Positions 881 to 63,316 of a DNA stretch of 64,000 bases are shown here, piece after piece. Position numbers and translations under genes: made by a program. Origin of the DNA: Geothrix sp. (GTDB taxonomy: Bacteria; Acidobacteriota; Holophagae; Holophagales; Holophagaceae); the NCBI RefSeq assembly GCF_030219325.1, contig NZ_CP126625.1, forward strand, positions 2,096,857 to 2,160,856, in the 5' to 3' direction. The first letter of the stretch is position 1. Every line of letters starts with the position of its first letter. The notes below the pieces were generated by a model that searched no databases, was not told where the DNA came from, and saw nothing but the letters and a program-made list of their open reading frames with translations.

Positions 881-3016
<2,136 letters not shown>

Positions 3017-3084
3017 GAAGGGGCCTCCTGAAGGACAAGGGGATGCCCTTCAGGATACCTCGTAACACAATGTTGAACCAGACC

Positions 3085-47127: not shown

Positions 47128-47835
47128 ATGACGCGCCTCTGGAATACTGGACCCATGAGCCTCCGCCCCGCCTCCCCCCTGCTCGCGCCCTCGCTGCTCT
47201 CCGCCGACTTCACGCGGCTGGGCGAGGAACTGCGCATGATCGAGGCCTCCGGTGCCCAGGTGGTCCACGTGGACGTCATGGACGGCCGCTTCGTGCCCAA
47301 CATCACCATCGGCCTGCCCGTGGTGGAGAGCCTGCGCAGGGCCACCACCCTGCCCCTGGACTGCCACCTGATGATCGTGGAACCCCTGCGCTACGCCGCC
47401 GACTTCGTGAAGGCCGGCGCCGACTGGGTGAGCATCCACCAGGAGGCCGATCCCCACCTGCACCGCACCCTGGACGCCATCCGGAAGGCCGGCGGCAAGG
47501 CCGGCGTGGTGCTGAACCCCGGCACGCCCGTGGACACGCTGGTGGACCTGGTCGGGGACTTCGACTTCGTGCTGCTCATGAGCGTGAACCCCGGCTTCGG
47601 CGGCCAGAGCTTCATCCCCCGCGTGCTCGACAAGGTGAAGCGGCTCGATGCCCTGCGCACCGAGCGCGGCATCCCCTTCTTCATCGAGGTGGATGGCGGC
47701 GTGGGCATGAAGAACGCCGCCGAGCTCGTCCGCGTCGGCGCCGATGCCCTGGTGGCGGGCAATGCCTTCTTCAAGGCCGAGGATCCGAAAGCCGCCGCGG
47801 CGGGCCTGCTGGGCGAGATGGCCAAGGGGCGCTGA
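47128..47835 (+). CDS. rpe: Ribulose-phosphate 3-epimerase
   Basis: A 235-aa TIM-barrel enzyme interconverting ribulose 5-phosphate and xylulose 5-phosphate. Active-site blocks: APSLLSADF, VHVDVMDGRFVPNITIG, DCHLMIVEP, LLMSVNPGFGGQ and FIEVDGGVG. The ATG at 47128 has AGGAG seven bases upstream and adds a nine-residue extension; the ATG at 47155 would give the more usual N-terminus but lacks a Shine-Dalgarno. The frame is open further upstream only through the opposite-strand gene. Confidence 0.95.
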   Translation: MTRLWNTGPMSLRPASPLLAPSLLSADFTRLGEELRMIEASGAQVVHVDVMDGRFVPNITIGLPVVESLRRATTLPLDCHLMIVEPLRYAADFVKAGADWVSIHQEADPHLHRTLDAIRKAGGKAGVVLNPGTPVDTLVDLVGDFDFVLLMSVNPGFGGQSFIPRVLDKVKRLDALRTERGIPFFIEVDGGVGMKNAAELVRVGADALVAGNAFFKAEDPKAAAAGLLGEMAKGR

Positions 47836-47847
47836 ATCGCGTTCGGA

Positions 47848-48450
47848 TCAGTGCGAGGTCGGCACCGGCCCGCTGTCCCAGAGGATGGTCGCCCAGAAAT
47901 GCATGTCCCCGGGCGGAATGACCAGGGGCAGCCGGTCCTTCCGCGAGGCATGGGGCGCATAGGCCGCCACCGCCAGCTCGCTGCAGTAGTAGCGGTCGGC
48001 CACGTTCAGCCCGATCAGACCGGTGAAGTCGTAGGGACGGCCCACCAGGGACCGGGCCTTCTCCACGGCGGCCCGCTGGCGCTCCGGCGTGGTGGCCCAC
48101 ATGGGGCGCATGAGGATCACGCGGTGGGCGCGGTGCAGGAAGTCCGCCAGGGGCGCCGTATGGAGGCCCCTGCCCTCGGCCTCGATGACCTGGTTGTGCT
48201 CGGCATCGAGCACCGCCACATGGCTGAAGGGCTCGGCGGTGAGCGCGCTTACCAGGTTGTCCGTGGCGTGGTACCCGCGCATCACCAGCCAGTCGCCGGG
48301 CTGGCCCAGGCGGGTCACTTCCCGCAGAGCCAGCGCCTCCCGCGCCGGACGGTCCGCGGGCGGATGCACGACGATGGGCGTGGCGCATCCCAGCAGAAGA
48401 GACATCATGAGCAGGATGGGGCCTGGGGAGCGCATGCGGCATTCTCGCAT
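47848..48450 (-). CDS. YiiX-like cysteine hydrolase lipoprotein
   Basis: A 200-aa protein with a lipoprotein signal (LLLGC) and a papain-like NlpC/P60-type fold of the YiiX/YebB group. The catalytic His is in EPFSHVAVLD and the Cys in DRYYCSELAVAAY, with GRPYDFTG between, which is the permuted order seen in YiiX proteins. Such proteins act on acyl or peptide bonds at the envelope; the substrate is unknown. Two starts are possible (48450 or 48435), both leaving the lipobox intact. It lies 45 nt after the SecY-like gene. Confidence 0.75.
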   Translation of the reverse strand: MRECRMRSPGPILLMMSLLLGCATPIVVHPPADRPAREALALREVTRLGQPGDWLVMRGYHATDNLVSALTAEPFSHVAVLDAEHNQVIEAEGRGLHTAPLADFLHRAHRVILMRPMWATTPERQRAAVEKARSLVGRPYDFTGLIGLNVADRYYCSELAVAAYAPHASRKDRLPLVIPPGDMHFWATILWDSGPVPTSH

Positions 48451-48495
48451 GGGCCGGCCGCAGACACCCGGACCGCCACCGGGTTGAATCCGTCC

Positions 48496-49938
48496 CTATT
48501 CCCCCGTGGGGACAGGTTCGCCTTCTTCGGCTGAAGCGCTCCCGACCGGGACCAGGAGCTCATGCAACAGCCCCGAGGCCTCCTCCACCCGTGTTTCGGG
48601 AACGAGGAGATCCACGGGCACCATGGGGCCGAAGAACTGGAGCAGCGACCGGTGGTGCAGCCCCCTGGCAAAGGCCGGAATGCCCGCCTCCTGAAGGGTC
48701 TCCAGCGCGGGTCCCAGCGCGTGGACCCGGTGGAGGGGCCAGGCGGACGCGAGGGCGCCGTGCTGGATCCGGAAGCCCCACTCCCGGACCAGGTCCGTGG
48801 CGATGGCCATGAGCAGCACCAGGCTCACCAGGTCCATGGGATCCCTTTCCCTCAGCAGGAGGCCACGAAGCGCCAGGAGACCGATGAGGAAGCCCGCGGA
48901 CTGCACCATGGAACGGGCCACGGCGCGCCAGGCCTCGCGCAGGTGCGCCTCCTCCTGGCCGGCGTGGCGCCGGTTCCAGGCATCTGCCACATGGCCAGGC
49001 CAGTTGAACAGCAGGGTGAACAGGGGAACACTCACCAGGAGCGCGACCCCCAGGAAGACGGTGTCGTTCAACCGACCCGCCAGGACCGCGAAGGGATCGC
49101 GGACCTGGGGCATGGAAAAGGCCCTGAACCCCAGCCTGAGGGCCGTGAGCAGGGTCAGGGCGAGCAAGGGCAGGAAGTAGGGTTGGAGCCCACAGGCGGG
49201 GAAGGGAAGATCCATGCGGCGGGCGGGCCGGCCCGTTCCCCCGGCCTCGCGGCGGAACGCCAGCGACAGGAGCACCACCAGCAGGGTCAGCACCATCAGC
49301 CGCGTGGGGGTGCCCCGGAAGAAGAGGTGGTTCTTCACGGCGGCCCGCTGCGCCTCGCTGGCCAGAAGTCCCAGCAGCACGACGGAAAAGCCGCTGCCCA
49401 GGCCGTGGCGGTCGATCACGCGCATCAGGGCGAGGAGGATCCAGACCCCGGCCATGAGGGCCATCCAGGTGGCGAGGAGGGTGAGGGTGTCGTGTCCGAT
49501 GAAACGGTTCGCCTTCATGAGCTGCACGAGGCTGAAGGACTGGAGGGCCGCCATCCCCAGGCCCACGAGGAGGGCAGCCGTCCGGAGGCGCGCTCGCCCC
49601 CCGGGTCCGTTCAGCCGCCATTCCCGCCAGGCGGGCACGACCAGGGCCGCCAGCTCGACGAGGAGGAAACCCGAGACCACGGGGCCCAGCCCCAGCCTGA
49701 GCAGCGGGAAATGCCCCCGGATTTCGTGGGAGACCCCCAACAGCACGGAGTTCATGTCGCGGTTCACCATGGGCAGGTCCAGCCAACCCAGCAGCAGGAT
49801 GGCACCCATCGCCCCCAGGCTAATGAAGAGCGGCCGCCAGGGAAGGGCCAGACGGGATCCCGCATCCGGACTCAACGTCCCTGCGGCCTCCAGAGCAGGA
49901 TCCAGCGCGCCCTCGCCATCGGGGTGGTTCCTATCCAT
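48496..49938 (-). CDS. Divergent SecY-like multipass membrane protein
   Basis: A 480-aa protein with about ten transmembrane helices. The first third resembles SecY: RPLFISLGAMGAILLLGWLDLP (TM1), LGLGPVVSGFLLVELAALVVP (TM2), a GGRARLRTAALLVGLGMAALQS loop/helix, later HGLGSGFSVVLLGLLASEA like the TM4 glycine motif and LPFPACGLQPYFLPLLALTLL like TM7. Charged loops needed for ribosome/SecA contact look reduced. The last 70 residues (LQEAGIPAFARGL, VPVDLLVPETRVEEASGLL) resemble a DUF2007-type domain. GGAGG precedes the ATG at 49938. It closes the macroglobulin operon. Confidence 0.6.
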   Translation of the reverse strand: MDRNHPDGEGALDPALEAAGTLSPDAGSRLALPWRPLFISLGAMGAILLLGWLDLPMVNRDMNSVLLGVSHEIRGHFPLLRLGLGPVVSGFLLVELAALVVPAWREWRLNGPGGRARLRTAALLVGLGMAALQSFSLVQLMKANRFIGHDTLTLLATWMALMAGVWILLALMRVIDRHGLGSGFSVVLLGLLASEAQRAAVKNHLFFRGTPTRLMVLTLLVVLLSLAFRREAGGTGRPARRMDLPFPACGLQPYFLPLLALTLLTALRLGFRAFSMPQVRDPFAVLAGRLNDTVFLGVALLVSVPLFTLLFNWPGHVADAWNRRHAGQEEAHLREAWRAVARSMVQSAGFLIGLLALRGLLLRERDPMDLVSLVLLMAIATDLVREWGFRIQHGALASAWPLHRVHALGPALETLQEAGIPAFARGLHHRSLLQFFGPMVPVDLLVPETRVEEASGLLHELLVPVGSASAEEGEPVPTGE

Positions 49939-49948
49939 GCGTTCCTCC

Positions 49949-50215
49949 TCATTGGGGATCCATCGTTCCAGCCATCGATCTCGCAAGCTGGAGCTTCCCG
50001 GCCCTCGACATGCGCTTGACCGCCCGCTCCCGACGCAGGGCCTCCGCCTTGGTGCCGCAGGCCTCCCGGTAGACCAGCTCCAGCGGCCCCCGGCCCCGCG
50101 TGTACTTGGCGCCCTTTCCGGCCTGGTGCTGGGCCAGCCGCGCCGCCACGTCCAGGGCAATGCCGCAGTAGAGCGTGCCATCGCCGCACTGGAGCAGGTA
50201 CACCGACCAGGTCAC
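49949..50215 (-). CDS. GIY-YIG nuclease superfamily protein
   Basis: An 88-aa single GIY-YIG domain of the YhbQ/UPF0213 type. It begins WSVYLLQCGDGTLYCGIALD (the GIY...YIG pair as VYL and YCG), then the conserved Arg in AARLAQHQAGKGAKYTRGRGPLELVY and Glu in ALRRERAVKR. Function of these stand-alone proteins is uncertain. The GTG start overlaps the preceding stop (GTGA), which puts it in the same operon as the SpoIID-like gene, although its role there is unclear. Confidence 0.9.
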   Translation of the reverse strand: MTWSVYLLQCGDGTLYCGIALDVAARLAQHQAGKGAKYTRGRGPLELVYREACGTKAEALRRERAVKRMSRAGKLQLARSMAGTMDPQ

Positions 50216-51678
50216 GGCAGGCGCCAGGACACGGGAAAGGCCTCGGCCAGGATCTGCTCGGCGGTGGCACCCTGCCCGGCCCGGAAGCGGGCCGTGGCCA
50301 GGCAGAGACCCACGTTGTGGCCCCAGCCGCGGCCCCGCAGGCGCAGCGAACCGTCCGGCTGGATGTCGCCTTCGCAGGCGTTGCTGGGCCAGGCAGTCCA
50401 GCCGAAGCGCCGGCCCGCGGCGAGGCGCAGGTCCTCCACGGCATAGGGTCCCGACTCTCCCAGCCGGAGCCCCTGCTGGCCCGGTCTCAGACCCGGCCGC
50501 AGGTCGCGCTTCAGCGCGGCGACCTGCGCGGCGCTGAGGGTGCGTTCCCAGGTGGCCCAGCGATCCTCGGGTACCACGGAGGCCCCGCCTGTCTCCGCCG
50601 GTCCCTCGCCCCAGACCCCCCGGGGGCTGAGGGCGTGACCGCCGGCCGAGCCCGTGAAGAAGGCCCAGCGCGCGTCCAGGTTCAGCTCCGGCGAAACCGC
50701 CACGGCCCCCGCCGTGTCCGCCGAGGCCGCGCCCCGCACCACGGCGCAGTGCGTGAGCGGACAGAGCGCGCCCCCCTCATGCTGCCGCGGATGGCCCTCC
50801 AGCCAGCGACCCAGCACGGCGGCCAGGGCGCGACGGGCCTCGAAGGGCGCATCGGCGCCCAGCTCGCCCTCGGTGGCGGCCGCGATCCAGGCGGCCCGCG
50901 AGGCGGTCCAGACGAGGCGCCAGCCCCGGGTCTCGGCGCTGATCCGCACGAGGCCGCGGAGGTCGCGCACGGGAAAAGCCTGCGGGAAACGGACGCGCCC
51001 CCGGAAGCGCCAGGTCCTCCCGATGCGGTGCGGCAGCCGCTGGCCGTTCACCACCAGCGGGCCCCGCAGGCGCTCGGGGGGCCAGACCACGGTGACGGAG
51101 TCGGCCGCCGTCAGGGCCTCCTTCACCCAGGCCTCGGGCTCCGGCGTCCGCCCCGGCGGCGCAGGCAGGGGCTCACGCCGCAGCCAGGCGCGGAGCCAGC
51201 GGTACGACCAGGCCTGCTCCCGCGTGGTGCCACCGGCCAGGGCGCGGTCCAGGCGGGCCTGCAGCGCGGCCGCGGGCGCCGATGGCCACGCCTTCGGCAG
51301 GCGGCGGTGGGATTCGGCCCAGAGGCAGCGGGCCTCCTCCTCCCAGCGGTGCAGGTCCCGACCGGTCAGGCGCCGGTGGGTCAGCTCGTGGCGCAGGATG
51401 GCGCCGAGGTCGCGCCGCTTCAGCTGCTCCCAGGGGCGCAGGTGCAGGACCTCCCCCACCCACTGGCCGCTGCGCCCTGGGGGTGCGCCGGTGGCCCGTT
51501 CGAAGGCGATGGCCTCGGCATGCAGCCGGACCCGCCAGGGACCGGCGGGCCAGGGACCCTGGGCGGCGGTGGCCGCCAGGGCCGCCCGGAGGGCCTCCTC
51601 GATGGGCGCCTGGGCGCCGGGATCCCCCTCGAAGGTCGGCGGCGTGAAGGGCGGTGCAGGCGCGACCAGAATCATCAT
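50212..51678 (-). CDS. Metallopeptidase-like plus SpoIID domain protein
   Basis: About 488 aa with two parts. Residues 40-130 contain a gluzincin-type motif HELTH at 97-101 in LGAILRHELTHRRL, followed by WEEEARCLWAE, as in peptidase MA-like proteins. Residues about 280-488 resemble SpoIID/LytB: EARRALAAVLGRW, CPLTHCAVVRG, and the end GRGWGHNVGLCLATARFRAG followed by AEQILAEAF. SpoIID cleaves or activates cleavage of peptidoglycan glycan. No clear signal peptide is visible. It begins at 51678 overlapping the previous stop (ATGA). In the E. coli yfa operon the matching place is held by DUF2300 protein YfaQ, which may correspond to this and the previous gene. Confidence 0.75.
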   Translation of the reverse strand: MMILVAPAPPFTPPTFEGDPGAQAPIEEALRAALAATAAQGPWPAGPWRVRLHAEAIAFERATGAPPGRSGQWVGEVLHLRPWEQLKRRDLGAILRHELTHRRLTGRDLHRWEEEARCLWAESHRRLPKAWPSAPAAALQARLDRALAGGTTREQAWSYRWLRAWLRREPLPAPPGRTPEPEAWVKEALTAADSVTVVWPPERLRGPLVVNGQRLPHRIGRTWRFRGRVRFPQAFPVRDLRGLVRISAETRGWRLVWTASRAAWIAAATEGELGADAPFEARRALAAVLGRWLEGHPRQHEGGALCPLTHCAVVRGAASADTAGAVAVSPELNLDARWAFFTGSAGGHALSPRGVWGEGPAETGGASVVPEDRWATWERTLSAAQVAALKRDLRPGLRPGQQGLRLGESGPYAVEDLRLAAGRRFGWTAWPSNACEGDIQPDGSLRLRGRGWGHNVGLCLATARFRAGQGATAEQILAEAFPVSWRLP

Positions 51679-52484
51679 CTGGTTTTCAGTCCCAGGATCT
51701 CCCGGATGCGGGCCAGGCCTTCCGCCTTCCCCCGCCCCCGGGGCAGGTGCAAGACCACCAGGGCCGATCCGCGGCCCCCCGCCACCCAGGCGCTGGTGGC
51801 CGCGGGTTCCCCGGGCACGGGGGCGGTGCCGGTCTTGAACCACCAGTCCTCCTTGCCGAACAGCGCCTGGAACTCCACCCAGGTGCCCGCCAGGAAGCGT
51901 TTCCCGAAAGACACCACCTCGGACTGCTCCGGTTCCATCAGCCAGCGCAGGAAGCCCTCGGCGCTGGTGCGCAGCAGGTCCCCATCCCCGACCCAGGCCG
52001 CCGTCAGGGGCGGCAGCGTCTCGCCGGGCGGCAGCCGGCGGCCCAGGAAGGGCGCGAAGACCTCCTCCATCCGCACCCTCGCCGCGGCCTCGCCGTAGTC
52101 GGCCCTCCAGTGCGCCTGCGCGTCCTGGATCCAGAAGAGGAAGGCCAGGTTGCAGCTCTCCTGCAGCGCCTTGCCCAGATCCACCCGGCCGTGCCCCTCG
52201 CGGTTCCAGCAGACGAAGGGCCCGGCGGCGCCCGTGCACTTGAACCGCACGTTCCGGCTGGCCCAGTCGGCCCCCTCCATGCGCAGCCACACCAGCTTGG
52301 CCAGGCTGCCCATGGGGGCCTCCTTCTTCGCCTCGCCGTAGCTCCGCACCTCGCCGTCCCCGAGCGTGATGGCAAAGCCCTCACCCGGCTTCAGAGCGGG
52401 CTCCTTCAGCGGAGCGGGCGCTGACTGGGCGCACAGCAGCAGGGTGCCGAGGAATACCGGCAGCAGCACTCTAAGGTTCCACAT
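51675..52484 (-). CDS. Penicillin-binding-protein-like transpeptidase homologue
   Basis: A 269-aa exported protein (signal to about residue 20). It has the three motifs of serine acyltransferases: SLAK at 60-63, SCN at 110-112 in the typical context GHGRVDLGKALQESCN, and KTGT at 217-220. That spacing is short for a PBP but matches the class D beta-lactamase/PBP fold. It could be a peptidoglycan-peptide-binding or hydrolysing protein. It is placed just after DUF2135 in the macroglobulin operon, and bacterial macroglobulins are known to pair with PBPs (YfhM with PBP1C). The start is the ATG at 52484. Confidence 0.75.
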   Translation of the reverse strand: MWNLRVLLPVFLGTLLLCAQSAPAPLKEPALKPGEGFAITLGDGEVRSYGEAKKEAPMGSLAKLVWLRMEGADWASRNVRFKCTGAAGPFVCWNREGHGRVDLGKALQESCNLAFLFWIQDAQAHWRADYGEAAARVRMEEVFAPFLGRRLPPGETLPPLTAAWVGDGDLLRTSAEGFLRWLMEPEQSEVVSFGKRFLAGTWVEFQALFGKEDWWFKTGTAPVPGEPAATSAWVAGGRGSALVVLHLPRGRGKAEGLARIREILGLKTR

Positions 52485-53334
52485 CAAAGGTCCCCATGGT
52501 CACCGGCCCGGCCCCGGGGAGGATGAGGCGCTCCCAGGTCCAGCGGCGCTCCTGGTCGGTGCCGCCATCCAGCACGGCCTCCACCTTGATGCGGGCGGGC
52601 TTGCCGCCCCGCCAGCCGCCCATCCACTTCAGCGTGTAGGTGCCGGGCGGCGGGGTGTCGTGGGTGTATTCGCCGGACCAGCGCAGCATGCCGCCGGAGG
52701 CCGTGCGGCGGCCGCCCTCGGCCACGGCGCCATCGGGCTCCAGCACCTGGAGGCTGCCGCCGGTGTATTCGTCGTTGGCGTGGATGGACACCACCCGCAG
52801 GCGGGTCCGCGCCGTGGACACCCACCAGCTGCGCACCACCCGGAGGCCCGAGTCGGGTTCCAGGATCTCCAGGCGGTTCTCGCCATTCTGGGCCGTCAGG
52901 TCGGTGTTCAGGGTGTGCCCCACGCGGACGGACCAGCTGAGCGTCGCGCCGTTGAACCACACCTTCAGCGTGCGCGCCCGCCAGGCCTGGCGGGCGGTCT
53001 CGGCCTCCCGCTCCAGCCGCGCCTGCCGCAGCTGCTCGGCGGTGCGGGTGTCCTCCCCGCCGGGATCGTAGCCGCCCTCGTCCTCGTAATCGTCGTAATA
53101 GCGTCGCCCGGGCTCATCCTTCGGGGGGTTCGGGTCCTTCGGATCCACCAGCTTGAGCCGCAGGTTCACGGTGCGGTCGCTGGACCAGCCGCCGAGATCC
53201 GGCGCGACCTCCAGGCGCCAGAGCTTGAGGTCCGGTGCGTAGGACGCCACCACGGGCGGCTTGAGCTTGGCGGCCTTCTGCGCCATCAGGCCCGGGGCGG
53301 CGAAGAGCAGGGCCAGCATCAGCAGCGGTCTCAT
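52471..53334 (-). CDS. DUF2135 (YfaP-like) secreted protein
   Basis: A 287-aa exported protein with a signal peptide (MRPLLMLALLFAAPGLMA). The middle is charged and Asp/Glu/Arg-rich (RRYYDDYEDEGGYDPGGED), and the last 150 residues show the beta-rich pattern of DUF2135 (LSWSVRVGHTLNTDL, RLRVVSIHANDEYTGGSLQVLEPDG, GTYTLKWMGGW). E. coli YfaP sits next to the macroglobulin YfaS in the same way. The start is the ATG at 53334, overlapping the macroglobulin stop (ATGA); the frame is open further upstream but is shadow there. Function unknown. Confidence 0.8.
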   Translation of the reverse strand: MRPLLMLALLFAAPGLMAQKAAKLKPPVVASYAPDLKLWRLEVAPDLGGWSSDRTVNLRLKLVDPKDPNPPKDEPGRRYYDDYEDEGGYDPGGEDTRTAEQLRQARLEREAETARQAWRARTLKVWFNGATLSWSVRVGHTLNTDLTAQNGENRLEILEPDSGLRVVRSWWVSTARTRLRVVSIHANDEYTGGSLQVLEPDGAVAEGGRRTASGGMLRWSGEYTHDTPPPGTYTLKWMGGWRGGKPARIKVEAVLDGGTDQERRWTWERLILPGAGPVTMGTFDVEP

Positions 53335-56300
53335 CGCGCACCTCCGTCCTGCACCTTGAGGTCGAGGCCATCGCAGGTGGCCCACTGCCCCTCGTTCGAC
53401 ATGAGGCTCAGCTTGGCCGGCCGCAGGCGGTAGCTGCCCGCCATGCCGGCCCGCAGGTGGATGCGCACCGTGTGCGTATTCCAGCTCCAGGCCCGGTGGA
53501 ACAGGAAGGTCACCTTGTCCGGGTGCACCTCGATGCGGGGCTTCGTCCAGACATCAGATGAACCTTCCTCCGTGAAGGCCTTGCCCTCCAGCACGAAACC
53601 TTCCAGCTTCACCGTGGGGTTGAGGCCGCCGGGGATGGGCACCTCCAGCATCACGTAGTCGGCGTCGCGGTCCGTGCGGAACTGCACCTGCATCCAGGCC
53701 TCCTCGCCGGCCTTCATGATTCCGGTCCAGGGCTCGCGGACCCAGCCCTGGCGGGCATTCCCGGTCTGCTGCGGCGTCTTCAGCCGCCAGAGGTTCCGCG
53801 TCACGGCCAGGCGCAGGGCGGAGGAAGCCTCGCCCTTCGGCACGCCCGCGGCGCTGCCCGGCACCTGGTAGGCGTAGGTCCACACCAGCAGGCCCCTGCC
53901 GCTGGCGGTGACGGTCACCGGCTTCGGCTCGGCCATGACGTAGCTGCCGGGCCGCGGCTCCCGGGCGTTCCAGCGCCGTGACTCGGGGCGCTCCTTGAAC
54001 TCGAAGGAGGGGCCGCCCTGCACCGCCGCCTGGATGGCCAGGGGGCCGAAGTCCAGCTTCCGGGTCTTCATGAGGTAGGGCAGCAGGTCCACGATCTGGC
54101 CCGTGCTCCAGGTGGAATACCAGCCGTAGCCGCGGTACTCCGAGGCCAGGAAGGTCTCACCCTGGCGGATCAGGGGCGACTGGGGTCGCGCCAGGCAGAG
54201 GGCCTTGAGGGCCATCACGGTCGGGACGATGTCCCCCGAGTTGTAGCTCCACCAGGTCTCGCGGCGCCCCTCCCAGCGGGCCAGGCCGCCCTTCAGCACG
54301 GCCCGTTGCTCCAGGCGCTCGGCCAGGGCCGCGGCCTTGGGATGCTTCGCCGCAGCGGCGGCCAGGGCGACCATGGCGTGGACGTGGGTGCCGGCCCACT
54401 TCCCGGCCAGCACCTTGTCGGCGGAGCTGTCGATGAGCCCGGCGATGGGCTCCCCGGTCTGGGCCAGGGCCATGAGCAGGAAGGCGGCATCGCCTTCGGG
54501 GTCGGGGCTCTTGGAGCCGGCCACCCGGCCGCCCTGGTCCGCCTGCCGCGCCACCTGCTGGAAGAGGCTCAGCGCCGCCATGCGGCCCCGGCGGTAGACG
54601 CCTTCGTCCACGGCGTAGCCCAGGCGCTTCATGGTGGCGAAGCTCTGGATGGCGTAGCCCGTGGTGTGGGGGTTGGCCTCCATGCCGAAGTCATTGGGCG
54701 CGTACCAGCCCCAGCCGCCGTTGGGCTGCTGGTAGCCGTAGACCTTGAACACGCCGTCGCGGATGTTGCGGTCCAGGTCCGTGAGCTGCTTCCAGTCCAG
54801 GTTGGGCATGGCGCCCTGCTTCACCAGGTCCGCCACCAGCAGGTTGGGCACGAAGCTGGACAGGGTCTGCTCCACGCAGCCGTACGGGTAGCCGATGAGG
54901 TAGGGCAGCGAAGGCCCCGCCAGGTGCTCCAGATTCCCGACAGGCGTGAGCACCAGCATGGCGTCCCCCTTGGCGGAGGGCGGCGCGGGCAGGGTGAAGG
55001 TCTGGGCGCCCCCATCCAGCACCACCGAGCCCGACATGGAGGCGGGCACCAGCTGGTCCTGCACGGTGACGCGCTGGCGCTCGGCATCCTTGAGGCCACC
55101 GCCTTCCACGCGGGCCGTGACGGTCAGGGGCCCCGTCTTGTCCGAGAACAGCGGCAGGGCGAAGCGGTACTCGCCCTGATCCTGGAGGCTGAAGGTGCCC
55201 TCGGGCGTGCCGGCGAAGCGGCCGTTCTGGACTTCCAGCCTGATCTTCCCGTTAATGGGCTGACCGGAGAGGTTGCGCACCAGGGCGATGGCCCGGGCCT
55301 CCTCGCCCACGCTCAGCGTGCGCGGCAGGGTGAGCGCCACCTGCAGGGGCTTCGAGGACGGCTTGGAGCTGCGCCCCACGCCCACCTTGGTATCGCTGGT
55401 GATGGCCGTGGCCGTGGCGCGCCAGGCCGTGAGGTTGTCCGGCAGCACCAGGTCCACGCTGGCCCTGCCATCGCGGCCCGCGGCCACGAAGGGGGTCCAG
55501 TGGGCCGTGTCCTTGAAGTTCTGGCGCACCTTGTCGTCGTCATCGGCCTTGAAGTCGCCGCGCTTGGTCTGCTTGAGGCTCCACACGGGACGCTGGCGGC
55601 GCAGCAGGTCGTGGAAGCTCCAGTCCGTCGATCCCGAGCGCAGCACGCCGTGGCGGCGCGTGGGGTGGAAGAAGCGCACGGGATCGGGGTGCAGCTCCTG
55701 GCTCAGGGCGTAGATGGCCTCGTCCACCACGCCCACGCTGAGGTCGGCGGCCGTTGGCTTTCCGGCGGCATCCGTGACCGCCACGGAGACCTTCATGGGC
55801 TGGCCGGGCTGGTAGCGCTCCTTGTCCGTGGTGACGGCCACCGAAAGCCGCCGGTCCCGCTTGGGCACGCGGATGGGCACCTCCACCAGCTGGCGGCGGC
55901 CCTCGGCCACGATCTCGAAGACGGCCCAGACATTGGGCTGCATGGCGGCGGTGATGGGGATGTCCACCAGCGCCGTGGTGCCCGGCACCGCGCGGCTCTG
56001 GCGCTGGCCCAGGCCCTCGTGCTCGATGGCCCAGTGCAGGGTGAGCTTGGGGCGGGGCAGCTGCACGAGCACACGGGCCACGTCGCCGGGCTGGTACTCG
56101 GGCTTGTCGGCGGCGGCGCGGAGATCCGGCACCGCGGGCAGCGGCGTGCCTTCCGCGGCCACGGTGATCTGGCGCTGGGCCACCACGGGGCGACCCTTGG
56201 AATCCTTCGCCTCGGCCACCAGCAGGAAGGCGCCGCCCTCGGGGATGCTCAGCATGGCCTGGGGGCCCTGGGCCGAGGCCACGGTCTCGCCGGGCTTCAG

Positions 56301-58073
56301 GGCATTGGGCCGCGACCACCAATAGGCGCTGTCCTTCAGGGCCACGATGCGGGCGGCCCGCAGGGCGATGGCGATGCCCGGCACCTCCTTGCCATCCAGA
56401 TCCAGGGCCCGCGCCGTCACCTGGAAGGGCTTGCCGGGCAGCGCCACCTGGCGGTCCGCTGCGATCATCAGCACCAGGTCGCCGGCGGCGGCGCGCACCT
56501 GGGCCTGGCCGCTGTTGCGCTGGCCCGCGGCATCCGCGACCTTCACCACCATGCGCCAGAGGCCATCGCTTTCCGCCTTGAAGCTGAGCAGGTCGGCCTG
56601 GCCCTCGTCGTCGAGCTCAAGCTGGCCACTCTCCATCAGCTCCGGCGCAGGGCCCGAGTCCTCGTCGTCCCAGATCCACTTGGACTTGGGCGGCACCACC
56701 TTGTAGAGGAACCAGTCCGCCTTGGCGCCCCGCACGGCGGCGCCATAGAAGTAGCGGGCGTTGGCGTGGAAGCTGAGCGCATCGCCCAGGCCCACCTTGG
56801 TCTTCTCGGTGGTGACCTTCACCTCGAAGGCGGGTTTCACGAACTGCTCCACCTTGAACTCGGCCTGGCCGGGCCCCTGGGGGCCCTGGAAGACGATGCG
56901 GTAGAGGCCCAGGCGCCCCGCGCCCGGCAGGGTGAACTGGGCGGCGTAGGTGCCAGTCTCCGCGTTCAGGAGCTTGGCCTGGCCCTCGGTGACCTTGGTG
57001 TCCTCGGGATCCAGCACGGTGAAGGCCAGGGTCTGGGTACCGCTCACCACGCGGTTCTCGCCCTCCTCCACGCGCCGCAGGATCGCCTTGGCGAAGACCT
57101 CCTGGCCGGGCCGGTAGAGGGGTCGCTCCGTGAAGGCATAGAGGCGCTGGCGCACGGAGGCGGCGCTCTGGCCCTCGCTGGCGAGGATGGCCAGGCTGGC
57201 GCCGCTGCGGGCCAGCACCACCCGGCGCACGCCGGGGGTGACCAGGGCCTCGGCCCGACCGGTGGCGTCGAAGGCCAGGGCCTGCATTTTCGTTCCTTCG
57301 ATGAGCTGGCCGGCCGCACCCGGTTTCACGGCGCCATCCCGGGCATCCACCGCCTGGACGCGGAGCTTCGCGCCGTCCTGCTCCGAGAGCAGGGCTAGGT
57401 CCGTGACCATCCAGGGGACATAGGCCGCCTCCGTGCCGCGCAGCACCTCCACCAGGTACAGGCCCGCGGGCTGGGCGGGCAGCTCCACGCGGCTGAGGAA
57501 GCCCTCGTCGCCGGACTCGTCGTCCTCGTGTCCCTTTTTCCCGGTGATGTCCTCGCTCACCTTCGGCACGATCTCGGTCACGAAGGTGATGCCGGCCTGG
57601 CCTTCCAGGGGAAGCGCCGAACCTTCGCGCACCCGTGCGGGGCTGGTCCTGGCGGAGGTCAGGCGATCCGTCTGTTTGGCGGCGTCCCGCAGCACCTGGG
57701 TGGCGGTGCGATGCACGGTGACGAAGGCGCGCCGGCCGCCCCAGAGCACGGCCTCACGCAGCACGTCCAGGGGATCCTGCACGCCGCGCCCGCCTTCGGC
57801 CACGGCCGTGCCGCGCTCCAGCAGCACCTTCTTCAGGAAGGCCTCCGGATCCTCCACGCGGTAGATGCGGATGCGGGCCTCGGCGGGGATGGGGCCCGCG
57901 GCCTCCAGCTGGCCCGGCTTGCCCGGCAGGGTGGGCCGCAGGGTGGCGAAGGCGCCGGTCCAGCCGCCTTCGCGCCAGGGGCCTTCGGCCGCGCGCTTCT
58001 GGGCCGTGCCCAGGGTGGGCAGCAGCAGGATCACGGGGAGCAGCAGGGTGAGGGCAGAGCGGAACCAGCGCAT
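53331..58073 (-). CDS. Bacterial alpha-2-macroglobulin (YfaS-like) with CxEQ thioester
   Basis: A 1580-aa exported protein, signal peptide to about residue 25 (ends GTAQ) with no lipobox cysteine. It shows a series of macroglobulin-type beta domains, a bait-type region and the complement-like alpha/alpha barrel around residues 1040-1340 (YLIGYPYGCVEQTLSS, then PNGGWGWYAPND and TTGYAIQSFATMKRLGY). The thioester motif CVEQ is at 1066-1069. Bacterial macroglobulins trap proteases in the periplasm. The synteny is that of yfaS: DUF1175 upstream, DUF2135 downstream. Literature describes E. coli YfaS as lacking the thioester, so this copy may be functional as a covalent trap. Confidence 0.92.
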   Translation of the reverse strand: MRWFRSALTLLLPVILLLPTLGTAQKRAAEGPWREGGWTGAFATLRPTLPGKPGQLEAAGPIPAEARIRIYRVEDPEAFLKKVLLERGTAVAEGGRGVQDPLDVLREAVLWGGRRAFVTVHRTATQVLRDAAKQTDRLTSARTSPARVREGSALPLEGQAGITFVTEIVPKVSEDITGKKGHEDDESGDEGFLSRVELPAQPAGLYLVEVLRGTEAAYVPWMVTDLALLSEQDGAKLRVQAVDARDGAVKPGAAGQLIEGTKMQALAFDATGRAEALVTPGVRRVVLARSGASLAILASEGQSAASVRQRLYAFTERPLYRPGQEVFAKAILRRVEEGENRVVSGTQTLAFTVLDPEDTKVTEGQAKLLNAETGTYAAQFTLPGAGRLGLYRIVFQGPQGPGQAEFKVEQFVKPAFEVKVTTEKTKVGLGDALSFHANARYFYGAAVRGAKADWFLYKVVPPKSKWIWDDEDSGPAPELMESGQLELDDEGQADLLSFKAESDGLWRMVVKVADAAGQRNSGQAQVRAAAGDLVLMIAADRQVALPGKPFQVTARALDLDGKEVPGIAIALRAARIVALKDSAYWWSRPNALKPGETVASAQGPQAMLSIPEGGAFLLVAEAKDSKGRPVVAQRQITVAAEGTPLPAVPDLRAAADKPEYQPGDVARVLVQLPRPKLTLHWAIEHEGLGQRQSRAVPGTTALVDIPITAAMQPNVWAVFEIVAEGRRQLVEVPIRVPKRDRRLSVAVTTDKERYQPGQPMKVSVAVTDAAGKPTAADLSVGVVDEAIYALSQELHPDPVRFFHPTRRHGVLRSGSTDWSFHDLLRRQRPVWSLKQTKRGDFKADDDDKVRQNFKDTAHWTPFVAAGRDGRASVDLVLPDNLTAWRATATAITSDTKVGVGRSSKPSSKPLQVALTLPRTLSVGEEARAIALVRNLSGQPINGKIRLEVQNGRFAGTPEGTFSLQDQGEYRFALPLFSDKTGPLTVTARVEGGGLKDAERQRVTVQDQLVPASMSGSVVLDGGAQTFTLPAPPSAKGDAMLVLTPVGNLEHLAGPSLPYLIGYPYGCVEQTLSSFVPNLLVADLVKQGAMPNLDWKQLTDLDRNIRDGVFKVYGYQQPNGGWGWYAPNDFGMEANPHTTGYAIQSFATMKRLGYAVDEGVYRRGRMAALSLFQQVARQADQGGRVAGSKSPDPEGDAAFLLMALAQTGEPIAGLIDSSADKVLAGKWAGTHVHAMVALAAAAAKHPKAAALAERLEQRAVLKGGLARWEGRRETWWSYNSGDIVPTVMALKALCLARPQSPLIRQGETFLASEYRGYGWYSTWSTGQIVDLLPYLMKTRKLDFGPLAIQAAVQGGPSFEFKERPESRRWNAREPRPGSYVMAEPKPVTVTASGRGLLVWTYAYQVPGSAAGVPKGEASSALRLAVTRNLWRLKTPQQTGNARQGWVREPWTGIMKAGEEAWMQVQFRTDRDADYVMLEVPIPGGLNPTVKLEGFVLEGKAFTEEGSSDVWTKPRIEVHPDKVTFLFHRAWSWNTHTVRIHLRAGMAGSYRLRPAKLSLMSNEGQWATCDGLDLKVQDGGAR

Positions 58074-58074
58074 G

Positions 58075-59022
58075 TCAGGACCTTGGGTTGGAAGCGTCGG
58101 GGGCTTCACCCGCCAGCAAACGCCAGCGGTAGAGGCCCAGGAAGGCGGGGTTCTCAAGCAGGGGACGGAAGTCGGGATCGGGGTGGTGCAGCAGGTCGTC
58201 GAGGCGCACGCGGCGCAGCTCGCCGGGCTGGCGCCCGCTGCCTTCGGGGCCGGTGTGGTAGAGCAGCATGGGCGCCCCGTCCACGTCGGGCCTCACGAAG
58301 GCCATGGCGTGGTCGGGCTGGGCGTGGGCCCCGCCCCGGGCGAAGAAGATCAGGTCGCCGGGCCGCGCCAGCTGCAGGTCGCGGCCCAGGGGCACGCAGG
58401 AGAGGCGGCGCAGGTAGGCCCCCTTGGCGAAGGGCTGGGGCCCCTCGGGGGTGGGGAAGCCCTGGCGCCAGTCCGGGGCGAAGCGGGGCGAGGGATCCTG
58501 CCCCGGTGGCCCAGCGGCGAAGGCCACGCGCTCCCGCCAGGCGGTGGTGTGGCTCGCCAGCGCCTCGCGGAAAGCGAAGCGCAGCAGGCCCGCGCAGTCC
58601 CGCTGGGCGGGCTCCCAGGCGGGGCTGGGACCCTCCAGCTGCTGCTCCAGCAGCGCCACGAACCAGGTGCGGAAGGCCTCGCGGTCGCCCTCCTCCCCGA
58701 GCGCCGCGGCGAAGGCCGCGGGCGTGGGCGCCATGGACAGGGACTGTCGGAATCCTGGCCAGGCGGTGACGACCGCCACCACCGGGTGGTCGGCGGTGAA
58801 GTAGAAGCCCGCGGTGGCGCTGCCCCAGGCCGGAGCCCCGGACAGGGCCACGCCCCAGCCGGGACGCCTCAGGCCCAACAGGCTGCGGCTCTCCACGCGG
58901 ACATGGCGCACCGGATTGGCGGGGTCGGCCTCCACCACCACCCCATGGCGGACGGGGGCCAGGGTCGCGAAGGCGACTGCGACCACGGCCGAGGCCGCGA
59001 CCAGGCTGGGAACGGGCTTCAT
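58075..59022 (-). CDS. DUF1175 (YfaT-like) putative cysteine peptidase
   Basis: A 315-aa protein with an N-terminal hydrophobic signal. Candidate catalytic residues are Cys143 in [16 protein letters not shown] and His238 in [10 protein letters not shown], the pattern of NlpC/P60-like folds and of DUF1175. [11 protein letters not shown] precedes the histidine as in NlpC/P60 enzymes. It overlaps the DUF2138 gene upstream (ATGA) and lies one base before the macroglobulin. A peptidoglycan-peptide hydrolase or amidase role is plausible, not proven. Confidence 0.82.
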
Positions 59023-61187
59023 CGCGGCCGTCCCTCCAGGCCGCCAGGGGTCCAGTTCCAGTCGATCCGCACGGGCCCCAGGGCCTTCACGGCGCCCAGG
59101 AAGGGGCCGAGGCTGAAGGCCAGTTCCGCGGCGGCCTCATCGCCGGTGGTGGTCTCGCCGATCCACCAGCCGCTGCCGGTGCGGCTGCGGAGGAAGGCCA
59201 GCAGCAGGTTCTCCAGCTCCTTCGCGGTGCGCGCACCGTCGAGCTCCATGCGGGCCCAGGCTTTGGACTCGCTGTCGGCCAGGGTGGGCGCCTGGCCCTG
59301 CAGGCCCGCGGCCACGGCCTTCACGGCGGCCTCGTCCGTGCCCAGCACCAGGGTGTCCGCCACCAGGGTCCAGGCGGGCCGGAAGGCCTGGGCGGTCATG
59401 ACGCGGTGGACCTCGGCGGTGCCGAAGGCCTGCTTCTGGTTCTGGCCCTTGAAGAGCCGGGGCGTGAGCTTCTTCAGCAGGTTCTCCACCTGAAGCTTCT
59501 TCGCGGCCTGCACCGGCAGGGCCAGGGCCAGGCTGGGCGTCATGCCCGGCTCGCCGAAGCCGCCGAAGGCCTCGATCTTGCCATCGCGCTGGGCCTGCAT
59601 GGCCCGCCAGGGATCCTCGCGCCGCAGTCGCGCCAGCTCCGCCAGCGAGGCCTTCTCGGCGGGATTCAGTGCGGGCGCGCCCACCCAGCCGTTCCAGAGC
59701 AGGGCCGCGCCGCGCAGGTCCAGGCAGGCCTGCAGGGCCACGGCGTCCTGCCTCAGGGAGGCCCGCTGACGCTGGCGCTCCTGGGCCCGGGCCAGGGCGT
59801 CCTGGTAGCCCTTCATCTGCGCGGGGCTGAGGGCCTGACCGCCGTTGGCGAACTCGGGCATCTGCGGCAGGCGGAAGTCGCTGGCGTCGTCCACGCGCAG
59901 GATCGCCTCCACCAGCTTCTCGGTGGGACCCGCCCCCAGCGCCACCGTCAGGGCCCCGGTGCGGGGCGCGGCCTTGGCCACGAAGGGATTGGGCCAGGTG
60001 CCCTGCTGGGCGTTGGCGAGACGGCGGCGGATGGCCTGGATCTCGAAGGCGGCGTCCGCCCCGATGCGGGGCGCCACCCAGAAGGACAGCTCGGTATCGG
60101 GGGTCATGGCGGAGAGGGCCACCCGCGCCCACTCCTGGCGCTCGCCCAGGGTCGGCTCGGCCCCCGGGAACAGCAGGGCGCGAAGGGGCGCCTCGCGGTC
60201 GCTGATCCAGGTGCCCTCGGCCTTCTGGATGAGGTGGAAGACGCCACCGGAGCCACGCAGCTGCTGGACCTCCGTCGTCACGCCCGAGCCCGTCCACTTC
60301 ACGACGCGGCTGCGGGCGCCCGAGCTCAGGGGATTCAGCTTGAGCAGCGCCATCACCAGCTGGGTGCGGGTCGGCAGGTCGCCGGGAATGAAGACCAGCG
60401 TGCCCTGGAGGTTCCGGCCGCCTTCGCGCTCGGTGCCGTAGTGCAGCACCCAGGCCTCGCGGTTCGCGAGGGGCTCGAGCGCCGGGGAGGCCTGCTTCAG
60501 CCAGGGCTCCAGGTGCCGCACGGCAAAGCCCAGGCGGCTGCCCTGGGCCAGGGCGGGCACCAGGCCGGTGGACGCGCCGTTGGCCGCCGCGCCCGCGCCG
60601 CCCGCCAGGGCCACCAGCTTCTCCAGGCCGGGCCGCAGCTGCTTCAGGTGGATGAGCACGCCGGGCTGGGCCGCCTGCTCCATGCCCTTGGGCAGCGCCG
60701 CGCTGCCGCCCTGCGTGAACAGGGCCGGGCTGGGGATCCACTGGAAACGCCAGGCGCCCCTGTCCAGGTGCAGGCCCAGGCCGTGGGTCCAGGGCCGCTC
60801 CAGGCGGTCCGGGGAGCTCAGATAGGCGTAGGGGTCCTGGCCGTACTGGCGATAGCCACGCCGGTAGAGGAACTGCGCGGCCTCGGCGCCGCCGGTCTTC
60901 AGGGCCGCGGCGTCCCACTGGTCCACGGGCCAGGCCGTCAGGGCCCACAGGGCCGCGCGGCGATCCTGGGCATTACGCAGCCGGTTCCGGGCCTCCGCCA
61001 GCTGATCCGCCGAGGTGGACTGGTTCCATTTCTTCCCCGTCCATTGCTGGTTGCCGCGGGCATCGTAGTGGTAGACCGACCATCCCTGGACCCGCTCCGC
61101 AGCCCAGGCCGGAATCGGCGAGGGGCCCTGGGCCCAGGCCGCCAGGCTCAGGGCGAGCGCGCACGATCCCTGCGCGATGTGTCGCAT
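59019..61187 (-). CDS. DUF2138 (YfaA-like) secreted protein
   Basis: A 722-aa exported protein with a signal peptide ending SLAAWAQ. No catalytic motif is evident. It has Ala/Arg/Leu-rich helices, and repeated blocks such as [59 protein letters not shown] and [18 protein letters not shown] are those of DUF2138, which in E. coli is YfaA of the same operon. Start chosen at 61187, with AGGGGA upstream; a frame extends to 61208. It is the first gene of the operon, with a divergent promoter region of 120 nt to hutI. Confidence 0.8.
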
Positions 61188-61279
61188 TCCCATTCCCCTG
61201 CCCCGCACTGGAACCTCCGGTGTCGAGCGATGCTACCAAGCCGCGCCCCGGCCGCAAGGGACCTCCGCGTGATTTTTTA

Positions 61280-61302
61280 CAGTCTGGTTCGGTGGCAGAC
61301 TG
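61280..61302. promoter_or_regulatory. Inverted repeat CAGTCTG-N9-CAGACTG before hutI
   Basis: Perfect 7-bp arms, ending six bases before the hutI ATG. It covers the place of the ribosome binding site, which otherwise is not recognisable. It could be an operator for a HutC-like repressor or a hairpin hindering translation. Confidence 0.45.
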
Positions 61303-61307
61303 ATCAC

Positions 61308-62516
61308 ATGTCGGATCGTCGCGTGCTCGTGAACCTCCGGGGTCTGCTGACCCCCGATCCCGCCCGGACCTGGGCGGTGGACCGCATCCCGGACGCGGCC
61401 CTGGCCCTGGAGGGCGGCCGGGTGGCCTGGCTGGGCCGTCGTGCGGACCTGCCCGCGGCCTGGGCCGACGCGCCCCAGGTCGATGGCGGCGGCGCCTGGG
61501 CCACGCCGGGTTTCGTGGATCCCCACACGCACCTGCTCTTCGGTGGCAACCGCTCGGGCGAGTTCAACCGGCGGCTCGCCGGCGTGAGCTACCAGCAGAT
61601 CGCCGCCGAGGGCGGAGGCATCCGCGAGACCGTGCGCGCCACCCGCGGCGCCACCGTGGAGGAGCTGGTGGCCTCGGGGGAATCCCGCCTGCGGGCCTTC
61701 CGCCAGCGCGGCGTGGTGCATCTCGAGTGCAAGACCGGCTACGGCCTGGAACTGGAGGCCGAGTCCCGCCTCACGGCCGCTTACGCCGAGCTGAAGCGGC
61801 GCGGCTGGAGCCTCGACGTGACGCTGCTGCCCGCCCACGACCTGGCGCCGGAGTTCGGCGGCGATGCCGAGGCCAATGCCCGGGCCGTGGCCGAGGACTG
61901 GCTGCCGGAGCTGGTGCGCCGCCATCCCGGCGTGGCGCGCTTCTGCGACGTGTTCGTGGAGACCGGCGTGTTCAGCGCCGACCAAGGCCGCCGCATCTTC
62001 GAGGCGGGCCAGCGCCTGGGCCTCATCCCCCGCGTCCACGCCGACGAGCTCACCTGGACCGGCGGCGCGGAGCTGGCCGCGGAGGTGGGCGCCGCCAGCG
62101 CCGACCACCTGATGTTCTGCAGCGACGCAGGCATGCAGGCCATGGCCAAAGCCGACGTCACCCCCGTACTGCTGCCGGGCACCACGCTGTTCCTGGGCAT
62201 GCGGGACTGGGCGCCGGCCCGGAAGATGATCGAGGCGGGCTGCCGCGTGGCCCTGGCCACGGACTTCAATCCCGGGTCGTGCCCCTGCGTGGATCCGCTC
62301 ACCATCCTGCGCCTGGGCTGCCTGCAGCTGCGCATGACCTTCGAGGAGGCCTTCACGGCCATGACCCTCCACGCCGCCCGCAGCCTGCGCCACGGCGACC
62401 TGGGTCACCTGCACCCCGGGGCCCGCGCAGAGGTGCTGCTGTGGGACGTGGAAGAGCTGCTGGAGCTGGTGTACTGGGTGGGAGAGCCCCATCGCCCGAG
62501 GTGCCTGCCGGACTGA
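61308..62516 (+). CDS. hutI: Imidazolonepropionase
   Basis: A 402-aa metal-dependent hydrolase for the third step of histidine breakdown, opening imidazolonepropionate. Metal and substrate blocks: GFVDPHTHLLFGGNRSGEF, ECKTGYGLE, LPAHDLAPEF, RVHADELTWTGGAELA, SADHLMF and the ATDFNPGSCP end. No other hut genes are in the window, so the pathway is scattered or continues outside. The start ATG at 61308 matches the family; the frame is open far upstream but only as antisense of the DUF2138 gene. Confidence 0.96.
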   Translation: MSDRRVLVNLRGLLTPDPARTWAVDRIPDAALALEGGRVAWLGRRADLPAAWADAPQVDGGGAWATPGFVDPHTHLLFGGNRSGEFNRRLAGVSYQQIAAEGGGIRETVRATRGATVEELVASGESRLRAFRQRGVVHLECKTGYGLELEAESRLTAAYAELKRRGWSLDVTLLPAHDLAPEFGGDAEANARAVAEDWLPELVRRHPGVARFCDVFVETGVFSADQGRRIFEAGQRLGLIPRVHADELTWTGGAELAAEVGAASADHLMFCSDAGMQAMAKADVTPVLLPGTTLFLGMRDWAPARKMIEAGCRVALATDFNPGSCPCVDPLTILRLGCLQLRMTFEEAFTAMTLHAARSLRHGDLGHLHPGARAEVLLWDVEELLELVYWVGEPHRPRCLPD

Positions 62517-62623
62517 TTCCGCCCAAGCGCGGGCCAGCCCGCCCATGGAAACACCGGATCCAGGGCTTGTGATAGATGACCTCAAGCTCCCCGGCTAAGA
62601 TGGTCGCTCTTCCTGGAGCACCC

Positions 62624-63316
62624 ATGCGGCTGACCCCCCTCGCCCTTCTCGCCACCCTCTGTTCCGCGCCCCTGGTGGCCGAAGACGCACCCCGGGCCAA
62701 GGTCCAGCTGTTCGGCGAGCGGACCTCCTTCAACAAGAGCCCGGTGCTCTTCGTGGTCGAAGGGGGCCAGACCTACACCACGGAAGACCAGCCCAAGGAC
62801 CAGACCTCCTGGGGCCTGCGCCTCTCCCTCGGCATCGACGAGGCGGCCACCTGGAACGTCGAGCTGGCGGTGCGGGCGAAGAAGAAGAGCGCCCTCACCT
62901 ACAGCGGGCCGGTCAGCCCGACCCTGACCGCCGACTTCACCCAGGAGGGATTCGAGTACGGCTGGTGGGGACCCGGCGTCAGCTACGCGCTCAAGCTGGG
63001 CCCCGCCGTGGCCCTCAGCGCGGGCCTGGATCTCCGCGTCGAGCGGCTCACCGCCTTCATGCCCGCCGGCGTGGTGGTGGCGGAGGGCTACTCCGAGACC
63101 ACCATCTACGACCGCCCCTGGGCCCGGGCTGCGCTCACCTTCACGCTCCCCGTCTCGGCGCGCATCAAGCCGCAGGTCGGCGTCGAGGGCTCGGTGGCCC
63201 TGATCCGCAAGAAGGTGAAGACCTACTCGACCACCCAGTACGTGGATGCCGAGGACATGCGCCGCGGGCTGGCCCCGCAATCCGCTTTCAGTTTCTTCGC
63301 GGGCGTCACCTTCTAG
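62624..63316 (+). CDS. Putative outer-membrane beta-barrel protein
   Basis: A 230-aa exported protein with a signal peptide (MRLTPLALLATLCSAPLVA) and alternating polar/hydrophobic strands (SWGLRLSLGI, WNVELAVRA, VALSAGLDLRVERL, ARAALTFTLPVSARIKPQVGVEGSVALI), ending in Phe (FFAGVTF) as outer-membrane beta-barrels do. It has the size of an eight-stranded barrel of the OmpW/OprD-small class. I do not recognise its family. GGAG precedes the ATG. A terminator follows. Confidence 0.7.
   Translation: MRLTPLALLATLCSAPLVAEDAPRAKVQLFGERTSFNKSPVLFVVEGGQTYTTEDQPKDQTSWGLRLSLGIDEAATWNVELAVRAKKKSALTYSGPVSPTLTADFTQEGFEYGWWGPGVSYALKLGPAVALSAGLDLRVERLTAFMPAGVVVAEGYSETTIYDRPWARAALTFTLPVSARIKPQVGVEGSVALIRKKVKTYSTTQYVDAEDMRRGLAPQSAFSFFAGVTF

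Follow-up and report, generated by a model that had tools for sequence, protein, structure and literature searches.

Is a macroglobulin operon of Geothrix sp. the same kind of system as yfa of Escherichia coli and magABCDEF of Pseudomonas aeruginosa, and what might it do at the cell envelope? The question was raised by a 64,000-nt stretch of DNA (the window) of Geothrix sp. (Holophagaceae, Acidobacteriota), whose genome is a single contig of 3.73 Mb. Six minus-strand genes (window nt 61208 to 50212), designated A, T, S, P, Q1, and Q2 in this order, overlapped or abutted one another with gaps of -4, +1, -4, -17, and -4 bases. The operon is a yfa/mag-type alpha-2-macroglobulin set, as a preliminary description of the window had held, in that a DUF1175 gene (T) and an A2M-domain gene (S) stand within one co-directional six-gene run. 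Its macroglobulin carries a thioester motif, and its last two genes correspond, by profile comparison, to E. coli YfaQ (DUF2300), in a split form with intact motifs. The studies of the Type II (Mag/Yfa) class considered here concern P. aeruginosa, in which the macroglobulin has no thioester and the role of the neighboring genes, chiefly YfaQ/DUF2300, is left open; intact versions in environmental bacteria are a place to test the model of a protease trap combined with wall repair.

For comparison, 143 loci (the window, L029–L125, and L181–L225) were picked by their DUF1175 gene and not by the macroglobulin motif. Sampling was partial, covering 19 of 42 matching myxococcal-phylum genomes, three of five Deinococcota plasmids, and two of seven enterobacterial plasmids, with E. 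coli and Citrobacter as the Pseudomonadota. Phylum labels were taken from the named record that centered each search (L081 for Spirochaetota and L067 for Myxococcota).

A macroglobulin with a thioester motif and its yfa-type partners

S (nt 53331..58073, minus strand; 1580 aa) was the sole PF00207 match in the genome and possessed the Pfam domains MG2, A2M_BRD (bait region), A2M, TED_complement, and bMG10. It reads YPYGCVEQ, with the CVEQ thioester motif at residues 1066–1069 (nt 54867..54878, minus strand) and the cysteine at residue 1066; the preliminary description did not mention this motif. Type II macroglobulins are described in PMC5764988 as devoid of CXEQ, which is given there as the hallmark of Type I. 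Since S carries CVEQ, it falls outside Type II as so defined, and the operon is regarded as a variant of the gene set with a thioester motif. A thioester in the second class is not wholly new, given that PMC3328433 describes this class as lacking CxEQ "in many species" only.

T (nt 58075..59022, minus strand; 315 aa) belonged to DUF1175 by Pfam (E 1.4e-45), the NlpC/P60-like family of YfaT and MagC. The DUF1175 alignment matched P. aeruginosa MagC (PDB 7bk8) at 1.1e-66, the next match being at 0.16, and the cysteine and histidine of the family were conserved in 132 and 129 of 133 distinct proteins, respectively. Likeness to the mag operon, which was compared by the MagC sequence and by its published description, thus lies in MagC itself and in the presence of a bait-region macroglobulin in a multi-gene operon (PMC5764988), whereas MagD, unlike S, is described there as lacking CXEQ.

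Q1 (nt 51675..52487, minus strand; 270 aa, with a TTG start at nt 52487 and an ATG at nt 52484) and Q2 (nt 50212..51678, minus strand; 488 aa) singly had no Pfam match, including to the DUF2300 model. Q1 contained the motifs SLAK, SCN, and KTG, the residues of which were invariant or almost so across 20 aligned sequences. A profile of the Q1 family matched structures of penicillin-binding proteins (PBPs), the best at 3.5e-24, with 129 sequences up to 0.01. The AlphaFold2 model of Q1 (pLDDT 85.1, pTM 0.82) was best matched in the PDB by PBP2, OXA beta-lactamases, and BlaR1 (E values from 1.1e-8 upward; query-length TM 0.44–0.61 among the best 50). By its SxxK/SxN/KTG motifs and modeled fold, Q1 is a member of the penicillin-recognizing transpeptidase/beta-lactamase superfamily and is predicted to be active. 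In Q2, an HExxH metallopeptidase-like domain is followed by a SpoIID-like domain. The Q2 family profile matched the SpoIID structures 4rwr, 5i1t, and 5txu across most of the domain (from 4.3e-35, for 4rwr, to 5.7e-31), and the AlphaFold2 model had a pLDDT of 86.9 and a pTM of 0.59. In the second part of Q2, along with the SpoIID match, the Glu, Cys, and His positions that have roles in that family were present. What sets Q2 apart from the SpoIID family is the joining of the SpoIID part to an HExxH domain within a macroglobulin operon.

To limit circularity, domain models were rebuilt leaving groups out. With models built without the list of 36 Holophagaceae loci, Q1 was matched by the transpeptidase model at 1.8e-11, and Q2 by the SpoIID and metallopeptidase models at 3.2e-10 and 1.8e-8, respectively. 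With models built without the three enterobacterial loci, E. coli K-12 YfaQ was matched by the transpeptidase (7e-5) and SpoIID (1.5e-8) models; the metallopeptidase model missed it. In a set of 18,894 open reading frames (ORFs), the held-out transpeptidase model matched nothing outside the assigned Q-type set up to E 10, and the best extra matches listed for the other held-out models, up to three, were all Q-type ORFs or fragments, except for one in L031 (E 0.1). YfaQ, annotated as a tandem DUF2300 protein, also reached 27.0 bits with the SpoIID model of Pfam, for which the cut-off is 23; its TPLGSLWK aligned with APMGSLAK of Q1, and it has HEYLH close to the C-terminus. A sequence search of the PDB with YfaQ gave no match up to E 1. 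In the three enterobacterial Q proteins SxN appears as SxG, the KTG stretch was unaligned (K-12 YfaQ reads KTW there by eye), and the Cys/His pair of SpoIID is absent.

The distribution of these parts over genes varied. The sister genus (L045) has a single frame of 787 aa for Q1 and Q2 together, which likewise had no transpeptidase or SpoIID match in Pfam. Relatives in Acidobacteriota other than Holophagaceae are single chains with transpeptidase (best 1.1e-39) and SpoIID (best 1.6e-21) matches, in all four proteins tested, and with HExxH in the last part; at other loci, the first part has a gene of its own. The metallopeptidase domain precedes SpoIID in Holophagaceae, and the reverse order was found in the other acidobacterial ORFs listed with both, while two spirochaetal-phylum loci (L182 and L183) have a separate gene for each of the three parts. 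Because held-out transpeptidase and SpoIID models matched on both sides and a single frame exists in L045, Q1 plus Q2 is, on the grounds of homology, the intact, split counterpart of YfaQ, Q1 corresponding to its first part and Q2 to the rest. The earlier idea that DUF2300 had been replaced by a PBP-like and a metallopeptidase/SpoIID gene is therefore abandoned. These comparisons suggest that YfaQ is itself a transpeptidase-SpoIID-metallopeptidase protein; among the matches listed in a search of the open-access literature, there was neither such a SpoIID or transpeptidase reading of YfaQ nor a comparable CxEQ survey.

In 18 of 20 Holophagaceae loci, including the window, Q2 is read in the -1 frame relative to Q1 and the stop of Q1 overlaps a possible start of Q2 (ATGA, TTGA, GTGA, or TGATG; nt 51660–51690 in the window), the exceptions being L048, in which the arrangement differs, and the fused L045. 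This layout may reflect a programmed frameshift that fuses Q2 to Q1; ordinary coupled re-initiation yields it as well, and no clear slippery site was seen by eye at the junction.

P (nt 52471..53334, minus strand; 287 aa) had no Pfam match. It resembled YfaP together with its spirochaetal- and myxococcal-phylum relatives (hhalign 97.3%, E 1.9e-11) and is thus a remote DUF2135 partner by profile-profile comparison only. A (nt 59019..61208, minus strand; 729 aa, GTG start) occupies the YfaA position and was assigned to no family, there being no Pfam match up to E 0.1 and only DUF6087 at 0.17; it resembled the protein at the same position in three loci of the Myxococcota and Spirochaetota phyla (hhalign 92.4%, E 5.1e-7). 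The identification of A as DUF2138 was dropped as unconfirmed, with no Pfam match and an hhalign probability of 0.3% against E. coli and Citrobacter YfaA. Hence, in the order DUF2138-DUF1175-macroglobulin-DUF2135 given in the preliminary description, the last three members were borne out, DUF2135 remotely, and the first was not. In the spirochaetal-phylum locus L190, the gene upstream of DUF1175 (nt 3001–4773) matched DUF3352 (4.5e-11), which suggests one kind of protein that may stand at the YfaA position.

The Geothrix operon and E. coli yfa, for which the K-12 order yfaA-T-S-Q-P was checked and yfaS is annotated as a pseudogene, therefore have in common co-directional homologues of DUF1175, the macroglobulin, YfaQ, and DUF2135, with T and S overlapping or abutting. 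They differ in that Geothrix has P before Q, Q as two genes, its metallopeptidase and SpoIID parts in exchanged order, CVEQ in place of GVIN, and intact SxN, KTG, and SpoIID Cys/His where E. coli has lost them, as well as an A protein that is not detectably DUF2138.

Thioester and wall-enzyme motifs across DUF1175 loci

A neighborhood survey had been proposed as a check on the co-occurrence of these families, and it confirmed the pairing: a macroglobulin, whole or partial, was present in 121 of the 143 loci, mostly adjoining DUF1175, and most of the 121 also had Q-type domains. The macroglobulin was 0.6–1.5 kb from DUF1175 in a divergent myxococcal set and upstream of it in L185 and L189. Removal of 11 duplicates left 110 non-redundant macroglobulins, of which 103 were readable, the motif site being uncovered in 7. 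CxEQ was present in 99 of the 103, comprising Holophagaceae (24/24), other Acidobacteriota (47/48, L065 having CTEH), the myxococcal phylum (7/7, plus 12/12 of the divergent set, which has CLEQ), the spirochaetal phylum (7/7), and Deinococcota plasmids (2/2); the three from Enterobacteriaceae all had GVIN. Of the 110 loci, 74 had a recognizable transpeptidase domain, and 69 of these combined CxEQ with a full SxxK/SxN/K[T/S]G triad (KSG for KTG in L119 and L209). The three enterobacterial loci had neither CxEQ nor triad, and the remaining two had CxEQ with an incompletely aligned triad (L045, with KTG visible, and L080, a fragment). For the 36 loci in which no transpeptidase domain was found, contig ends, distance, or true absence may account for the result. 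On the Deinococcus and Meiothermus plasmids (L221 and L222), DUF1175 is accompanied by a CxEQ macroglobulin and by a gene with a metallopeptidase domain; neither a transpeptidase nor a SpoIID part was found there.

These figures bear on the alternative that S is an ordinary thioester (Type I) macroglobulin that happens to lie beside wall genes, its likeness to yfa being coincidental. CXEQ is the Type I hallmark of PMC5764988, and E. coli YfhM, which carries CLEQ, adjoins pbpC; Geothrix resembles YfhM-PbpC (PMC3328433) in the linkage of a penicillin-binding-type protein with a CxEQ macroglobulin, and the pairing of these two kinds of protein would be a logic that Type I and Type II sets share. 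Unlike in YfhM-PbpC, Q1 is small and the partners are DUF1175, SpoIID, and DUF2135; the window gene set had no glycosyltransferase or PbpC-type Pfam match, so that no PBP1c is adjacent. Moreover, the macroglobulin accompanies DUF1175, and mostly Q-type domains, in the loci counted above, E. coli YfaS has neighbors of the same kinds, and a direct structure-sequence search with S gave TEP1, CD109, and animal A2M, none of the 20 matches listed being named as a bacterial Type I protein. Coincidence therefore seems quite improbable. Of the features by which a Mag/Yfa set is known, Geothrix has DUF1175 adjoining the macroglobulin and the DUF2135 and YfaQ partners, and has no detectable DUF2138 and no CXEQ-less macroglobulin; of those of a Type I pair, it has CXEQ without the adjacent PBP1c. 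A macroglobulin tree that included YfhM was unrooted and quick and flagged long branches meeting, and so does not place S with Type I or with YfaS/MagD. In the myxococcal-phylum loci L209–L220, a shorter, diverged DUF1175 accompanies the CLEQ macroglobulin, and most have an ORF of about 750 aa with a transpeptidase triad and a weak SpoIID match; this set is possibly a link to Type I systems.

A proposed role in protease trapping and wall repair

We regard it as moderately likely that the operon encodes a chemically complete envelope-defense unit of the Mag/Yfa type, acting as a protease trap with wall repair. S would be exported to the periplasm and, once a foreign protease had cut it in the bait region, would bind that protease covalently through the CVEQ thioester. 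Peptidoglycan harmed by the same attacker would be trimmed and cross-linked anew by T (NlpC/P60-like), Q1 (transpeptidase-like), and Q2 (a SpoIID-like glycan cutter with HExxH), with A and P possibly serving as partner or scaffold proteins. In E. coli, YfaS/YfaQ would then represent a reduced relative, having lost the thioester and two enzyme active sites. Together, the thioester motif and the intact wall-enzyme motifs make such a scheme fit Geothrix better than E. coli. Published observations are in line with it: MagD of P. aeruginosa, after a bait site was engineered into it, traps a protease non-covalently, and MagD binds MagA, MagB, and MagF, its membrane location depending on MagB (PMC5764988); deletion of magD sensitizes cells mainly to the wall-targeting type VI secretion system (T6SS) effector VgrG3 and to a limited degree to Tae1 (PMC12663445); DUF1175/MagC binds peptidoglycan (PMC10318531); and for a macroglobulin with PBP1c, inhibition of the protease while the PBP repairs the wall has been proposed (PMC3328433 and PMC5764988). 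The preliminary description had arrived at an anti-protease and wall-repair unit acting at the peptidoglycan, a view that by analogy agrees with these ideas and with the predicted membership of several products in wall-enzyme families; its qualification "of unknown function" was too pessimistic in the light of protease trapping by MagD and its protection from some wall-targeting T6SS effectors (PMC5764988 and PMC12663445).

The same enzyme families could instead point to a unit for wall growth or remodeling in normal growth, with the macroglobulin as a scaffold or as a regulator of the cell's own periplasmic proteases. Three loci from metagenome-assembled genomes of Holophagaceae (L098, L099, and L102) have DUF1175 followed by a metallopeptidase-domain ORF, with no macroglobulin in the stretch (only 1.7 kb downstream in L102), as such a unit would allow. 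However, DUF1175 was missing from 4 of 18 same-genus genomes and is therefore dispensable for growth there, S keeps its bait-region domain and thioester motif, and magD of P. aeruginosa has a defense phenotype (PMC12663445), which together render this explanation unlikely.

C3-type thioesters are directed to hydroxyls by a histidine. By a further alternative, bait-cut S would attach through its thioester to peptidoglycan or another surface, as do complement C3 and insect TEP1, and mark damage for the wall enzymes instead of trapping proteases. The direct matches of S to structures of TEP1, CD109, and human A2M would suit it, as would the presence of wall-enzyme families within the same operon; very little credence is given to it here.

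Returning to the trap with repair, several points speak against it or narrow its base. Q2, by eye and by hydropathy, has no visible signal peptide, which is awkward for a wall enzyme, and A bears no recognizable relation to DUF2138. DUF1175 is termed inactive in PMC10318531, although its Cys and His are conserved here, and in PMC12663445 magD gives no help against TseH and is dispensable against Burkholderia thailandensis. Eight loci with CxEQ (L031, L033, L034, L073, L082, L182, L183, and L189) have a changed Cys or His in SpoIID, so that the SpoIID part of the correlation is not clean, and the joint loss in Enterobacteriaceae is seen in three sequences of one clade. No macroglobulin was found in 22 of the 143 DUF1175 loci, by tblastn with six macroglobulin queries as well; seven of these have less than 5 kb of downstream sequence, and 13 are among the 21 spirochaetal-phylum loci, 11 of the 13 having weak DUF1175 scores (E 1e-31 or worse). 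DUF1175 is also patchy, being present in 14 of the 18 same-genus genomes listed and in 28 of 247 sampled genomes of the phylum.

A broader proposal, held tentatively, is that the mag/yfa set was ancestrally a thioester macroglobulin with a working transpeptidase, lytic transglycosylase, and peptidase kit, and that the thioester-less form arose by late loss in at least the Enterobacteriaceae, along with decay of the YfaQ enzymes. The division into Type I and Type II would then not be one of thioester versus none, and cutting of the bait in an intact set could leave a covalent mark on the attacker, or on the damaged wall, and so recruit the repair enzymes.

Extent of the operon and neighboring genes

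The preliminary description had placed the unit at nt 48496–61187 and supposed that six of its eight products were exported. The core genes occupy nt 50212–61208, and the two genes beyond them (nt 50215–48496) are probably outside the functional unit. One encodes a small GIY-YIG protein (nt 49949..50215, minus strand; Pfam 2.6e-16) and overlaps Q2 by 4 bases; of the 19 other Holophagaceae loci scanned, 18 had it with the operon, the exception being the sister genus (L045), and it is regarded as a linked neighbor. The other, starting 10 bases after the GIY-YIG gene, encodes a 480-aa SecY-like membrane protein (nt 48496–49938; Pfam 8.1e-14) with a below-threshold DUF2007 match close to its C-terminus, and was rejected as an operon member, being beside the operon in none of the 19 other loci (L119 is too short to tell). 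As to export, signal-like hydrophobic N-termini were seen by eye and with a simple hydropathy scan in A (after Met 8), T, S, P, and Q1, for which export is therefore predicted; the count of six is not reached, with Q2 as described, a nuclease-type domain in the GIY-YIG protein, and a SecY-like protein that looks like an integral membrane protein.

A scan of nt 47500–62700 for sigma-70-like promoters gave no site, and a terminator scan gave one terminator-like site against 3.9 expected by chance. Just downstream, nt 47848–48450 encode a Peptidase_C92 (YaeF/YiiX-type) protein (Pfam 4.4e-14), a possible lipoprotein, whose gene was present in 3 of the 19 other Holophagaceae loci. About 100 bases upstream of A lies a divergent ORF, imidazolonepropionase-like by eye. 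Among the enterobacterial loci, the E. coli plasmid NZ_CP051662.1 (L225), typed as conjugative in PLSDB, carries yfaATSQP within a chromosome-like nrdA-yfaL-ubiG-gyrA-yfaATSQP-ato segment.

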